Source of the DNA: a bacterium SCSIO 12741
GTDB lineage: Bacteria; Bacteroidota; Bacteroidia; Flavobacteriales_G; Salibacteraceae
Reading direction: 5' to 3'
Assembly (NCBI GenBank): GCA_024398055.1
Contig: CP073749.1
Span: 806,001-870,000 of the forward strand
Length of the DNA: 64,000 nucleotides
Position numbers and translations under genes: made by a program. The notes below the pieces were generated by a model. It searched no databases. It worked only from the letters and a program-made list of their open reading frames with translations, and was not told where the DNA came from. This document shows, piece by piece, positions 23,300-64,000 of the stretch. Positions within the stretch are counted from its first letter, which is position 1. Every line of letters starts with the position of its first letter.

Positions 23300-23464
23300 A
23301 ATCTTAAATGTTAAATGATCAAGTTAAATTTTCAGGACTCTTGAAAACGGATGCGGCACCTCATTTAAGATTTACCCCCTCGGGCTGGCGCAATCTTAAA
23401 TGTTAAATGATCACGATAAATTTTCAGGTTTCTTGAAAACAGATTTATCGCCTCATTTAAGATT
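23300..23464. repeat. Two 73-base direct repeats with inverted ends
   Basis: Unit 1 (23300-23372) and unit 2 (23392-23464) each start AATCTTAAATG and end CATTTAAGATT, so each unit is also a large hairpin. They share TTAAATTTTCAG-like and CTTGAAAAC inner blocks and differ mainly in the middle. The 19-base spacer is C+G-rich. They fill most of the 360-base gap between the divergent E1 and LtaS-like genes, which has no gene. They look like a dispersed intergenic repeat family. Confidence 0.75.
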
Positions 23465-23576
23465 TTCCCTTAGCGTTTAAGATTTAGAAACGAGATTGAA
23501 AATCCAGTTTTCACATTATTAAGACTTTCCCTTCACTCTCAGAACTCGATTCTCGCATCTCAATCCTCTCTTTCCT

Positions 23577-31172: not shown

Positions 31173-31275
31173 GTGTTACGCGAATTGAAGGGAATTCAAC
31201 ATCTAAAATTAGAATATCCAACACCGTGCCAGGTAGTTAGGAAAGGTACTTATTAACATTTCGAGTTGAACTTTT

Positions 31276-31341
31276 CAATCTTGAATCTTGAATCATCAAT
31301 CTTCATTTTTTCATGTTCAAGATTCGAGATTGATGATTGAA
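31276..31341. repeat. AATCTTGAATC-type intergenic repeat with hairpin
   Basis: CAATCTTGAATCTTGAATCA is followed by AATCATCAATC (31291-31301), which pairs with GATTGATGATT (31328-31338). Copies of the same AATCTTGAATC words occur at 33867-33900. This one overlaps the upstream part of the rnpB promoter. Confidence 0.55.
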
Positions 31342-31351
31342 ACTTCCTTGT

Positions 31352-31359
31352 TACTTTTG
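31352..31359 (+). promoter_or_regulatory. -7 box TACTTTTG of rnpB
   Basis: Perfect TAnnTTTG, five bases before the P1 helix of RNase P RNA. A TTG at 31330-31332 is 19 bases upstream and fits the -33 element. Confidence 0.65.
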
Positions 31360-31363
31360 CAGC

Positions 31364-31703
31364 GTTGCAATTCGTTCCATCGCTCCGCTTTGTCGGAGAG
31401 GAAAGTCCGGACACCGAAGAGCGCCATACCCTGAGAAACCAGGGGCAGTTGTTGGGAGACTGGCAATTGACAGATAGGGCCGCAGAAAGTATACCGCCGT
31501 TTTCAATTTTATTGGAAAAGGTAAGGGTGAAAAGGTGCGGTAAGAGCGCACCAGTAGGGTTGGCAACAGCCTTAGCTTGGTAAACCTTTTGGGGTGAAAG
31601 GCCAAATAAACCCGGGTTTGAGGGCTGCTCGTCCAAACCGGGAGGGTAGGTCGTATAGACAAATGATGGATTAAAACAGAATCCGGCTTATTAAGGTTGT
31701 AGC
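31364..31703 (+). ncRNA. rnpB: RNase P RNA (class A)
   Basis: The conserved core is plain: GAGGAAAGTCCGGAC at 31399 onwards, GCCGCAGAAAGTATACCGCC near 31480, the GGTAAGAGCGCACCAG region near 31537 and the 3' ACAGAATCCGGCTTA near 31676. The 5' end GTTGCAA (31364-31370) pairs with TTGTAGC (31697-31703), giving helix P1. It is the ribozyme that matures tRNA 5' ends. The ends are set from P1 and the promoter and may be off by a few bases. Confidence 0.95.
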
Positions 31704-60835: not shown

Positions 60836-62245
60836 ATGAAATTCGACGATTTTGATCTTTCCGAGCCTCTGAAAGACGCCATATTTTATATGGGTTTTGA
60901 AAAGGCCACCCCGATACAAGAACAGGCCATCCCATCCATTATCGAAGGCAAAGACCTAATCGGTTGCGCTCAAACGGGAACTGGGAAAACAGCGGCCTTT
61001 TTAATTCCCCTGCTGGAGAAGATATCCAAGTCAGAAAAAAAGGGAATTAAGGCACTCATTTTGGTTCCTACCCGGGAATTGGCTATGCAAATTGACGAGC
61101 AGGTAGACGCTCTCGGTTACTTTGCCGATGTTTCCTCCGTTCCTGTGTATGGCGGTGGTGTTGGTGATGTATTTGCCCGGCAAAAAATGGCTATTCAGCA
61201 AGGGGTCGATATCATTATCGCTACACCCGGAAGATTTCTGGCACACCATAATCTGGGTTACCTCAATCTGGATGACCTGGAAACACTCATTCTGGATGAA
61301 GCGGATCGCATGCTCGACATGGGATTTATCGACGACATTCAACGAATCATCAATCTATGTCCGCAAGAAGGAAGGCAAACCCTACTTTTTTCCGCGACCA
61401 TGGCTACTGAGATTCGGGTATTGGCCAAAAAGATTCAGAAGAATCCCGTACAAGTAAACCTGGCCATCGCAAAGCCTGCTGCAAACGCGGTTCAGAAAAT
61501 ATACCTGGTCAATGACGAGCACAAAATAGCTTTGCTCGAGCATTTGCTGGATAACGAAGCTGAGGAGATCAGTAACATGATCATCTTCGCCTCCACTAAA
61601 GAAGGCGTCGATAAAATCTACCGCAAGCTCAACCGTGGAAATCGCAGTATTCAAAACCTGCATTCGGGCAAATCACAGGATGAGCGAAACGAAGCACTCC
61701 GCAAATTCAAAGCAGGAAGCCTAAAAATATTGGTAGCCACCGATGTTCTTTCCCGCGGAATTGACATTGAAGGCTTGAGCCATGTTGTTAATTATGACAT
61801 GCCGAACGACCCTGCCGATTATGTACATCGCGTAGGTAGAACTGCCCGAGCTGACCGCTCTGGAATAGCTATTTCTTTTGTAAACCGGGATGATCAGTTC
61901 AAGCTTCTAAATGTGGAAGAGCTTATCGAACGATCACTGGATAAATTGACCATTCCGGAATCCATTGGAACGAGTCCGGAATACAATCCGGATGAGTTAC
62001 TCAAGCGAAAAAGAAAAGGCCGGGGTAAGTCCAGGTACCGTCAGGGCGGAGGAAACCGCAGAAAAGGAGGAGGACAAAACCGAAATTCGAACAACCGTAA
62101 CAAAGGCGGGAAGAATTTTCGTGGTCAGAAAAAGAACAATGACCAGTCCAATCGTTCGGGCAAGAAACCTCAAGGCAAAAGACCACCGGGAAAGGGAAAC
62201 AATTCCCAAAAAGGTTCAGGCAACTCTGGCCAGGGCAAATCCTAA
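60836..62245 (+). CDS. DEAD-box RNA helicase
   Basis: 469 residues. Motifs in order: Q motif (FEKATPIQEQAIP), AQTGTGKT (I), PTRELA (Ia), TPGR (Ib), LDEADRMLDMGF (II), FSATM (III), IFASTKEGVDKIYRKL (IV), TDVLSRGIDIEGLSHVVNYDMP (V) and HRVGRTARAD (VI). A basic Gly/Arg/Asn-rich tail of about 90 residues (RKRKGRGKSRYRQGG...) favours RNA binding. It is probably used in ribosome assembly or RNA turnover, as with RhlE/CsdA. It ends four bases into the convergent XRE gene. Confidence 0.95.
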   Translation: MKFDDFDLSEPLKDAIFYMGFEKATPIQEQAIPSIIEGKDLIGCAQTGTGKTAAFLIPLLEKISKSEKKGIKALILVPTRELAMQIDEQVDALGYFADVSSVPVYGGGVGDVFARQKMAIQQGVDIIIATPGRFLAHHNLGYLNLDDLETLILDEADRMLDMGFIDDIQRIINLCPQEGRQTLLFSATMATEIRVLAKKIQKNPVQVNLAIAKPAANAVQKIYLVNDEHKIALLEHLLDNEAEEISNMIIFASTKEGVDKIYRKLNRGNRSIQNLHSGKSQDERNEALRKFKAGSLKILVATDVLSRGIDIEGLSHVVNYDMPNDPADYVHRVGRTARADRSGIAISFVNRDDQFKLLNVEELIERSLDKLTIPESIGTSPEYNPDELLKRKRKGRGKSRYRQGGGNRRKGGGQNRNSNNRNKGGKNFRGQKKNNDQSNRSGKKPQGKRPPGKGNNSQKGSGNSGQGKS

Positions 62246-62565
62246 TTGCCTTTTAATTGCTTCAGTTCTTGCTCCAGGTTTTCCAACCTTTGGTAGAGCA
62301 TTTTAATTTCGGTTTCAGCTGGATTTGAAATGGGATTTAATTGATCCGGCCTCACTTTGTTTCCTTCTCGACTAAAGCGTACAATCTCATCCATAGAGAA
62401 GCCCAACACCCGGGATATTTCATAAAATGTAGTAGCCTGAATTCGGGTTACTCCGTTTTCTAAGTTTGAATACACCTTTTGGGAAACACCCAATTGGATG
62501 GCAACATACTCTTGTGTAAAATGCTTGTATTCTCGTAAAATTCGAATGGCCAATGCGAGATCCAT
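62242..62565 (-). CDS. XRE-family helix-turn-helix protein
   Basis: 107 residues from the ATG at 62565 (MDLALAIRILREYKHFTQEYVAIQLG); an earlier ATG at 62622 would add a Phe/Cys-rich stretch with no family support. The HTH_3 domain covers about 5-60, with the recognition helix around SQKVYSNLENGVTRIQ. The last 25 residues form a short coiled coil (AETEIKMLYQRLENLEQELKQLKGN), suiting a dimer. The target is unknown. It converges on the helicase gene. Confidence 0.85.
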   Translation of the reverse strand: MDLALAIRILREYKHFTQEYVAIQLGVSQKVYSNLENGVTRIQATTFYEISRVLGFSMDEIVRFSREGNKVRPDQLNPISNPAETEIKMLYQRLENLEQELKQLKGN

Positions 62566-62716
62566 CGATCCACTTGTGTTTAAGAAGTTGGCGAACTCAT
62601 AGTAAAAGACAAAGCAACACATTCGTACTGTTTTGCCTTTCCAAAAAGGGTATAGACTATCCCAAGAACTGGGTAAGCTTATACGATTTTCGGGGTAAAC
62701 TGAAAATCAACTGACT

Positions 62717-62724
62717 TATATTTG
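62717..62724 (+). promoter_or_regulatory. -7 box TATATTTG of a possible small RNA or leader
   Basis: Perfect TAnnTTTG in the gap between the XRE gene and the 62894 gene. No clear -33 TTG at 19-21 bases. The RNA it would make contains two hairpins, the second a good terminator. Confidence 0.42.
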
Positions 62725-62729
62725 TGGTA

Positions 62730-62842
62730 TCATCTGCAAAAAGGAAGAAAATCGGTTAGATTGGCTTGTTTTTCGCAGGAATCTCAAAAACTCAAATTTA
62801 ATACATTTGAGTTGTTCTTTTTGTATTTAAAAAGAACTTTTT
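62730..62842 (+). ncRNA. Candidate small RNA or attenuator
   Basis: Starting about six bases after the -7 box, this stretch contains AACTCAAAT (62789-62797) paired with ATTTGAGTT (62805-62813), then at once GTTCTTTTT (62814-62822) paired with AAAAAGAAC (62829-62837) and a T run to 62842. A promoter plus a terminator about 115 bases apart without an open frame fits an sRNA. It may equally be a leader that attenuates the membrane gene at 62894. Not matched to a known family. Confidence 0.35.
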
Positions 62843-62893
62843 CAACCGAATTATTACTCCATGTAAATGGAGGAAAAAACTAAGAACTAAACA

Positions 62894-63304
62894 ATGGAAG
62901 CGAACTGGATGGTTCCCGTAAATGTATCCTACAGCACCCTGGCCAAATGCACGGCTTTTTTGGTGGTGAGTTGCATTACCGCCTTCCAAAGTCTTAATCC
63001 TTTTACGCCTTGGCTCTACAATTTGGGTTTGGCCTTGAGCATTCTATTCTCAGTAGGACTATTGACGCTACTCAATAGAATGCGACAGGTTGATCATGTG
63101 CCGATGTACGGCTCTATTCCAAGACCTTACTTCCAGTTGCAATATTTGCTGTTTTCACTCATGGCTTTAGGGCTAATGCAGGATGGGTGGGAAGAAAAAG
63201 ACCGGCTCGTGGATCGAGCACTGGTCGGTCTTTGCATCTACTTTGGTGTTTTGTTTATTGGATCGCTCTTTCAAACCAGAACACACCCTTCGGAGATTCC
63301 CTGA
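62894..63304 (+). CDS. Hypothetical membrane protein
   Basis: 136 residues with about four membrane helices (about 15-33, 39-57, 72-90, 108-126) joined by short loops. Segments VSYSTLAKCTAFLVVS and YNLGLALSILFSVGLLTLL are typical helices. No conserved polar residues suggest a transporter or enzyme. It lies after the candidate small RNA; CTCCAT-GTAA-ATGGAG just before it forms a small hairpin. Function unknown. Confidence 0.6.
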   Translation: MEANWMVPVNVSYSTLAKCTAFLVVSCITAFQSLNPFTPWLYNLGLALSILFSVGLLTLLNRMRQVDHVPMYGSIPRPYFQLQYLLFSLMALGLMQDGWEEKDRLVDRALVGLCIYFGVLFIGSLFQTRTHPSEIP

Positions 63305-63330
63305 ATATCTCCAGTAAAATATTCCTCATT

Positions 63331-63405
63331 CGCCGGTGCCGTTGCAGTTCAATAGTCTAAGGTTGTGACCAGGTCACATTTCTGCAAAGGTTGGCGGCAC
63401 AGGCG
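63331..63405. other. Large compound inverted-repeat structure, candidate structured RNA
   Basis: CGCCGGTGCCGTTGCAG (63331-63347) pairs with CTGCAA (63382-63387) and CGGCACAGGCG (63395-63405): 16 of 17 positions pair, with one seven-base bulge on the right side. Inside the loop TGTGACC-A-GGTCACA (63364-63378) is a perfect palindrome. A second hairpin GAGGATG-T8-CATCCTC (63409-63430) follows. This is far more pairing than chance gives for 100 bases. It does not match a known class that I can recognise. The rest of the gap 63305-63608 is C-rich and has no gene. Confidence 0.5.
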
Positions 63406-63586
63406 TTTGAGGATGTTTTTTTTCATCCTCCATCAATCCCTTAAATAAATTCACTCATACCGCCCAAAAACAGCCTTATTCCGGCCTATTCAGCCTCCCC
63501 TACTACCCATTCTCATCTCCTCAATTTCAGCCTTAGCAAGCCCCTCAAAAATGCCGAGCACCCAACTCCCCGAAAAATGCGATTGT

Positions 63587-63608: not shown

Positions 63609-64000
63609 ATGTTAATTTCAAGGTCCCAACTACTACCCCTCTTGGCATTGCTCACAATCAGCTTGCTACATGCTTGCCAAAAAAATGACGTTCAAGGGCT
63701 AACCACCCGGAACCTAACCTCACCATCCTGCCAGCTCCGGTCGTCGAATTATATTTTCGACGCCGGATCTAAATGGATTTATCAAAACGACAGCACTGGA
63801 GAACTCATTCAGGTTAAAGTAAGAAGCACTAAGCGTGATCAAGCCCCAAATCAGGAGCACCACGAATCGATTTGCTTTATCCAGAGTCAACTATCACCAG
63901 CCGACTTCAGTTATTCCTACTCAGAAGGAGAGTTTAGCAATCCTCCAACCGATCAGGAGTCTACCTCTCTCCCCTCCTATTGGGAAAGAAGTGGCGCTCA
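63609..64000 (+). CDS. Lipoprotein, 3' end beyond the window
   Basis: An ATG at 63609 opens a frame that runs off the end after 130 residues. The start LLPLLALLTISLLHAC is a lipoprotein signal with Cys23. The mature part has FDAGSKWIYQNDSTGELIQVKV, a strand-rich segment seen in many Bacteroidota lipoproteins. It has no stop to 64000 and its composition is protein-like. Function unknown because the rest is missing. Confidence 0.7.
   Translation, partial: MLISRSQLLPLLALLTISLLHACQKNDVQGLTTRNLTSPSCQLRSSNYIFDAGSKWIYQNDSTGELIQVKVRSTKRDQAPNQEHHESICFIQSQLSPADFSYSYSEGEFSNPPTDQESTSLPSYWERSGA

Follow-up and report, generated by a model that had tools for sequence, protein, structure and literature searches.

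A large unbranched hairpin, most likely a gene-end element, behind an orphan gene of bacterium SCSIO 12741

Introduction

Close to the right end of the window (the whole 64,000-nt stretch of bacterium SCSIO 12741 DNA analyzed here, from contig CP073749.1), nested inverted repeats occupy positions 63331-63430 between two genes on the + strand. A preliminary description suggested that these repeats may form an undescribed structured RNA. The question raised by this locus is whether the repeats act in RNA or in DNA and, if in RNA, whether they represent a conserved RNA family, a lineage-specific small RNA, or the end of a gene.

Architecture of the inverted repeats

Direct reading of the sequence with rechecked coordinates confirmed that all of the inverted repeats previously listed at 63331-63430 are present exactly as given. 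Of the 17 positions of the left arm CGCCGGTGCCGTTGCAG (63331-63347, + strand), 16 are paired with the right arm at 63382-63405 (+ strand), which is split and consists of CTGCA (63382-63386), a 7-nt bulge (63387-63393), and GCGGCAC-A-GGCG (63394-63405), as seen in both the sequence and the fold. Specifically, 63331-63334 pairs with 63402-63405, 63336-63342 with 63394-63400 (including one U.G pair), and 63343-63347 with 63382-63386, and the sole mismatch of the left arm is G63335 opposite A63401. The perfect 7-1-7 palindrome TGTGACC-A-GGTCACA (63364-63378) was likewise found in sequence and fold, where it forms the tip hairpin.

Additionally, we identified an outermost helix that had been overlooked, in which the 6-bp arms TCCTCA (63323-63328, + strand) and TGAGGA (63408-63413, + strand) pair with each other in the sequence and in the RNA fold. 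When a slightly longer piece is folded, the minimum-energy structure extends this helix by pairing of the A tract AAAATAT (63316-63322, + strand) with ATGTTTT (63413-63419), so that AAAATAT-CCTCA (63316-63328) faces TGAGG-ATGTTTT (63408-63419). The complete object on the + strand is thus an unbranched hairpin of approximately 104 nt (63316-63419), interrupted by a 2x2 internal loop, one G.A mismatch, the 7-nt bulge, and a 16-nt unpaired stretch, ending in the 7-1-7 tip, and followed by the remainder of U8. The T8 tract (63416-63423, + strand), directly behind the closing helix, is presumably the U tract and transcript end.

The same T8 tract had been interpreted as the loop of a further hairpin, GAGGATG-T8-CATCCTC (63409-63430). 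The repeat exists, but its "loop" is better read as a terminator U tract, directly behind the outer helix. This alternative hairpin overlaps the outer right arm, and since the outer helix with its A/U extension overlaps it as well, the two cannot coexist in one molecule. The RNA folds contained the helices of the long hairpin on both strands, and the T8 hairpin in the minus-strand fold only. Among 708 T runs of at least six (57 + 56 + 595), the one in this 7-bp hairpin was the only one with at least five perfect flanking pairs, for an expectation at equal base frequencies of approximately 0.7 at 5 bp and 0.04 at 7 bp; this rarity was noticed post hoc and is mildly surprising.

Stability of the fold

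The repeats and their fold are real and go beyond chance. A 120-nt piece gave z = -3.69 on the + strand, with 1 of 200 shuffles as stable, and z = -4.58 on the minus strand, with 0 of 200. The 91-nt core (63323-63413) gave z values of -5.2 (+) and -6.0 (minus), and none of 1000 dinucleotide shuffles was as stable on either strand.

For comparison with the rest of its own genome, the window was combined with 19 stretches of 20 kb, 444 kb in all. This set contains 141 intergenic regions with a length of 80 nt or more (28,846 nt), and the element ranked 5th among them by energy and 12th when ordered by z. By eye, T-tract terminator hairpins beside genes on the same strand appear to account for many of the strongest intergenic folds in the genome. 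An earlier table of terminator spans was dominated by branched folds, and it was replaced by a comparison of unbranched hairpins only, at 256 intergenic T tracts in the 444 kb. In this comparison the element was the most stable hairpin (-41.8 kcal/mol, 33 pairs) and is an outlier by energy, with a runner-up close behind (-38.2 kcal/mol) that lies on the strand opposite its neighboring gene. Because 62 of the 114 scored hairpins (-10 kcal/mol or lower), mostly weak ones, also span at least 70 nt, the span alone proves little, and energy is the distinguishing feature.

Other structured sites were also recorded in this genome. At 23341-23480 of the window, a strong minus-strand fold containing AAATCTTAAATGAGG twice lies between divergent genes and is perhaps a repeat element. 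In another stretch of the genome (L182, 17880-17965), another long-span terminator-like element of 83 nt, AAAGGGCGAGA ... TCTCGCCCTTT, was scored on both strands.

Neighboring genes

The hairpin begins (63316) 11 nt after the stop codon of a + strand open reading frame (ORF) at 62894-63304, which encodes 136 aa, looks membrane-protein-like by eye, and belongs to no family; its mRNA is the probable parent of the element. The ORF had no Pfam match, and its best NCBIfam match reached only E 0.16. In a set of 60 genomes, the own genome was the sole match (no relative in the 59 others), and a search of genome contigs returned none among 35 candidate stretches. Of the six frames, that of the ORF had the best codon score (0.12), in a weak test where the correct frame came out best for only 5 of 9 comparison ORFs. 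Its G+C contents by codon position (0.49, 0.39, and 0.52) are near those of the training genes (0.51, 0.39, and 0.45). Judging from these sequence properties, the ORF is probably a gene.

The next gene downstream (63609-64000, + strand) extends past the window end and encodes a lipoprotein-like orphan of 217 aa, as judged by eye. Its start codon lies 185 nt after T8. It was found only in its own genome among 395 genomes, and the codon score of its in-window part was weak (0.026 vs 0.077 in an antisense frame). Past it are genes for citrate synthase and enolase on the opposite strand; the 3' end of the citrate synthase gene, approximately 0.9 kb from the element, faces the 63609 gene. Neither orphan was seen in 29 other citrate-synthase loci, inspected over at most 1.5 kb per side and less in some.

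Several further features were observed on the upstream side. A single-domain helix-turn-helix (HTH) protein is encoded at 62242-62622, with the HipB antitoxin as its best NCBIfam match, below cut-off (37.6 of 79 bits). The leader between this divergent gene and the orphan ORF (62717-62822) carries a TATATTTG box, which we take to be a Bacteroidetes -7 type element and for which no -33 partner passed the promoter scan, followed by a AACTCAAAT..ATTTGAGTT hairpin with a GTTCTTTTT tail. The leader folds with z = -3.4 on the + strand (3 of 1000 shuffles as stable), and could be a leader terminator or a short RNA. Within the orphan ORF, an interrupted inverted repeat at 63197-63233 (AAAGACCG..CGGTCTTT, with an inner 5-bp helix) was matched in stability by at most 1 of 1000 shuffles; it reads as a minus-strand terminator with T5, and the terminator scan lists 63219-63205 on that strand.

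Terminator-like properties of the element

The element is very probably an RNA-level structure, namely a stable, unbranched hairpin that carries a U tract and sits right after a co-directional ORF. Its arrangement corresponds to intrinsic-terminator anatomy, in which a stable hairpin closes at a sense-strand T tract shortly after a co-directional stop codon. When growing transcripts were folded from 63280, the closing helix was present by 63413 and extended into the U tract from 63419, and the minimum-energy fold was unchanged once the downstream arm CATCCTC was added (to 63430 or 63440); these are equilibrium minimum-energy folds, not kinetics. The tail score on the + strand was 5.31 from T8 and 3.74 from the base after TGAGGA, compared with 1.61 on the minus strand. 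We consider that the element is probably an oversized Rho-independent terminator hairpin at the mRNA 3' end of the orphan ORF.

In such a mechanism, the tip hairpin (63364-63378) would fold first as the polymerase leaves the orphan gene, and the inner arms would follow. With the polymerase at T8, the outer helix TCCTCA/TGAGGA would close and zip into the A/U tract, and the transcript would be released near 63419-63423, whereby transcription of the orphan gene would be kept out of the 63609 gene. The long hairpin would also shield the mRNA 3' end. The left A tract and the near-symmetry of the element may permit weaker action on the minus strand, too, and two-way termination is a guess because the tail on that strand is poor. 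According to PMC12207403, A-rich upstream tracts are a feature of bidirectional terminators and possibly stabilize hairpins by pairing with the U tract.

Although the element resembles intrinsic terminators, including bidirectional ones, in its hairpin followed by U8, its place behind a co-directional ORF, and its upstream A tract pairing with the U tract, it differs from them in size and form. In PMC12207403, the TransTermHP criteria are quoted as a stem-loop of at most 59 nt with a loop of 3-13, and median terminator hairpin lengths, counted as stem nucleotides, are given as 20-35. With a span of 91-104 nt and 56-66 stem nucleotides, the element exceeds the 59-nt limit for a compact stem-loop quoted there and those medians, and it has an internal bulge and a complex apex. 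It was absent from the list of the terminator scan, in which loops were limited to 3-8, and two bases (TG) separate TGAGGA from T8. Its rank by z alone (12th of 141) and the absence of homologues of the parent ORF, for which the codon evidence is weak, likewise speak against a terminator. Most likely, the element works like a terminator yet exceeds the canonical size limit, with an upper part that is mostly beyond what termination needs. This surplus leaves room for a small RNA, either derived from the 3' UTR or independent.

Search for relatives and known RNA families

No known RNA family was recognized in the element, as the preliminary description had held for the candidates that it considered: no Rfam match rose above the gathering score, and relaxed searches returned only irrelevant matches far below it. 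In the window, only RNase P reached its gathering score (class A, RF00010, 31364-31707, + strand, 197 bits), and the minus-strand ORF that overlaps it (31253-31636) is probably spurious.

The element shares with bacterial small SRP RNA (RF00169) the form of a single long unbranched hairpin of approximately 100 nt, but it gave no covariance-model match and the SRP RNA of this genome sits elsewhere, and this identity was rejected. The long interrupted stem of 6S RNA (RF00013), closed by pairing of both ends, is also similar. 6S RNA contains a symmetrical central bubble. The element is approximately half as long, lacks such a bubble, and has no Rfam match, and its identity as 6S RNA was therefore rejected. 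Rfam found no 6S RNA in this genome, with a model that matched 8 of 14 control genomes and so can miss members.

Homologues were searched for with a covariance model of a single sequence (an alignment of the same stretch entered twice), which misses distant relatives. No credible homologue was detected in 35 genomes of the family, 120 of relatives, and 395 of the class; these sets overlap, each counts the own genome, and the searches of the 120 and 395 genomes ran with stricter filters that lose weak matches. The model also gave nothing credible in 110 citrate-synthase loci, the own locus included; of these, 30 were retained from the matching genomes (36 of 43), and 80 came from genome contigs. 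Five marginal hits, L203 (genome G401, E 0.013), L205 (E 0.17), L035 (genome G114, E 0.34), L206 (own genome, E 0.67), and L050 (E 3.2), all lie inside ORFs, and the E value of L203 is about the chance level across 395 genomes.

DNA matches at E of 1 or less occurred in 45 of 60 genomes, and those outside the own genome were short, had E above 0.008, fell in many cases over the T tract, and were treated as chance. At E of 1 or less, the own genome (5.1 Mb) contains the element once in full, along with four partial matches that are short and located at its T-tract end, and an additional minus-strand match is the near-palindrome reading itself. As far as the single-sequence model could test it, the arms are not conserved in related genomes, and the idea of a conserved family of structured RNA is not supported by Rfam, the genome sets, or the citrate-synthase loci. 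The part of the earlier proposal that placed the element at the RNA level fared better, in that there is one full genomic copy and the palindrome does not recur. In the sets listed, the genus has no member besides this genome, and so absence from other genera leaves conservation within the genus possible.

Alternative explanations

The element can also be read as a lineage-specific small RNA of approximately 100 nt, either made independently or released by cleavage from the 3' UTR of the orphan ORF, with the closing helix and U8 as its own terminator; it would base-pair through its unpaired 16-nt stretch or its 7-nt bulge. The elaborate unbranched fold with its single-stranded segments goes far beyond terminator needs. 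Furthermore, PMC7366714 treats intergenic small RNAs of Bacteroides thetaiotaomicron with a transcription start site and an intrinsic terminator as high-confidence and includes putative 3' UTR-derived ones, one of them validated. The element, known from its sequence, resembles these Bacteroidota RNAs, as they are presented there, in size class, 3' terminator, and structured body. Nevertheless, no homologue and hence no covariation was detected, Rfam matches were neither above the gathering score nor relevant below it, and no Bacteroidetes-type promoter was matched on the + strand at 62800-63330 (a weak test), and we regard this reading as conceivable but unlikely. Its more specific form, a young structured RNA of approximately 100 nt that is processed from, or shares, the terminator of the orphan mRNA, regulates through the 16-nt stretch and the 7-nt bulge, and adopts the T8 hairpin as an alternative fold in read-through transcripts, is rather improbable.

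The strong fold of the complementary strand (z from -4.6 to -6.2) and the terminator-like site at 63219-63205, together with the larger hairpin at 63197-63233 with T5, would fit a minus-strand structured RNA or terminator, in which, reading leftward, ATATTTTA comes after the hairpin and the 63197-63233 hairpin may take part. We judge this very unlikely, as such an RNA would overlap the orphan ORF in antisense, its tail score is the low one given above, and rightward of the element no minus-strand ORF of at least 100 aa appears until citrate synthase, approximately 0.9 kb away. Two mutually exclusive helices sharing GAGGA(TG) might also suggest that an attenuator or riboswitch in the leader acts as a switch for the 63609 gene, with the T8 hairpin as its alternative fold. 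On the + strand, however, the CATCCTC arm is made only after the U tract and so cannot prevent termination there, and it leaves the minimum-energy fold as it was; with 185 nt between T8 and the start codon and no riboswitch family match in Rfam, such a switch is very unlikely.

Gene cassettes consist of an ORF directly trailed by an imperfect palindrome, and the orphan ORF with its immediate imperfect palindrome is reminiscent of them; this and the perfect palindrome TGTGACC-A-GGTCACA could point to a DNA element, namely a regulator operator, a mobile-element end, or an integron attC site. We consider a DNA element highly improbable, given that a single full copy exists in the genome and the four other matches are short and at the T-tract end. 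For an operator, the palindrome besides its own two strands had 0 matches in the own genome at up to 1 mismatch and one place at 2, and at up to 3 mismatches 29 + 32 matches vs 38 + 38 for the control. No RYYYAAC or GTTRRRY core of an attC site was found at 63290-63450 on either strand, and the single full copy in 5.1 Mb is at odds with a dispersed repeat or mobile-element end. A phage or plasmid origin was rejected, since no similar DNA was found in phages or plasmids, and a viral pattern scan gave 8 matches, none of which resembled the element by the covariance model.

Biological meaning

Taken together, the orphan gene most likely ends in an oversized hairpin, namely the element, which would act as a terminator or a 3' UTR hairpin and perhaps in both directions. 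If the element terminates transcription, it shows that a task usually done by a much shorter hairpin is also within reach of a bulged one of approximately 100 nt. Such sites would escape scanners that limit the length of the hairpin or the size of its loop, as happened with the terminator scan here. If the element is a small RNA, this RNA would have arisen together with an orphan gene. Otherwise, it would be an ordinary gene-end signal of unusual size.
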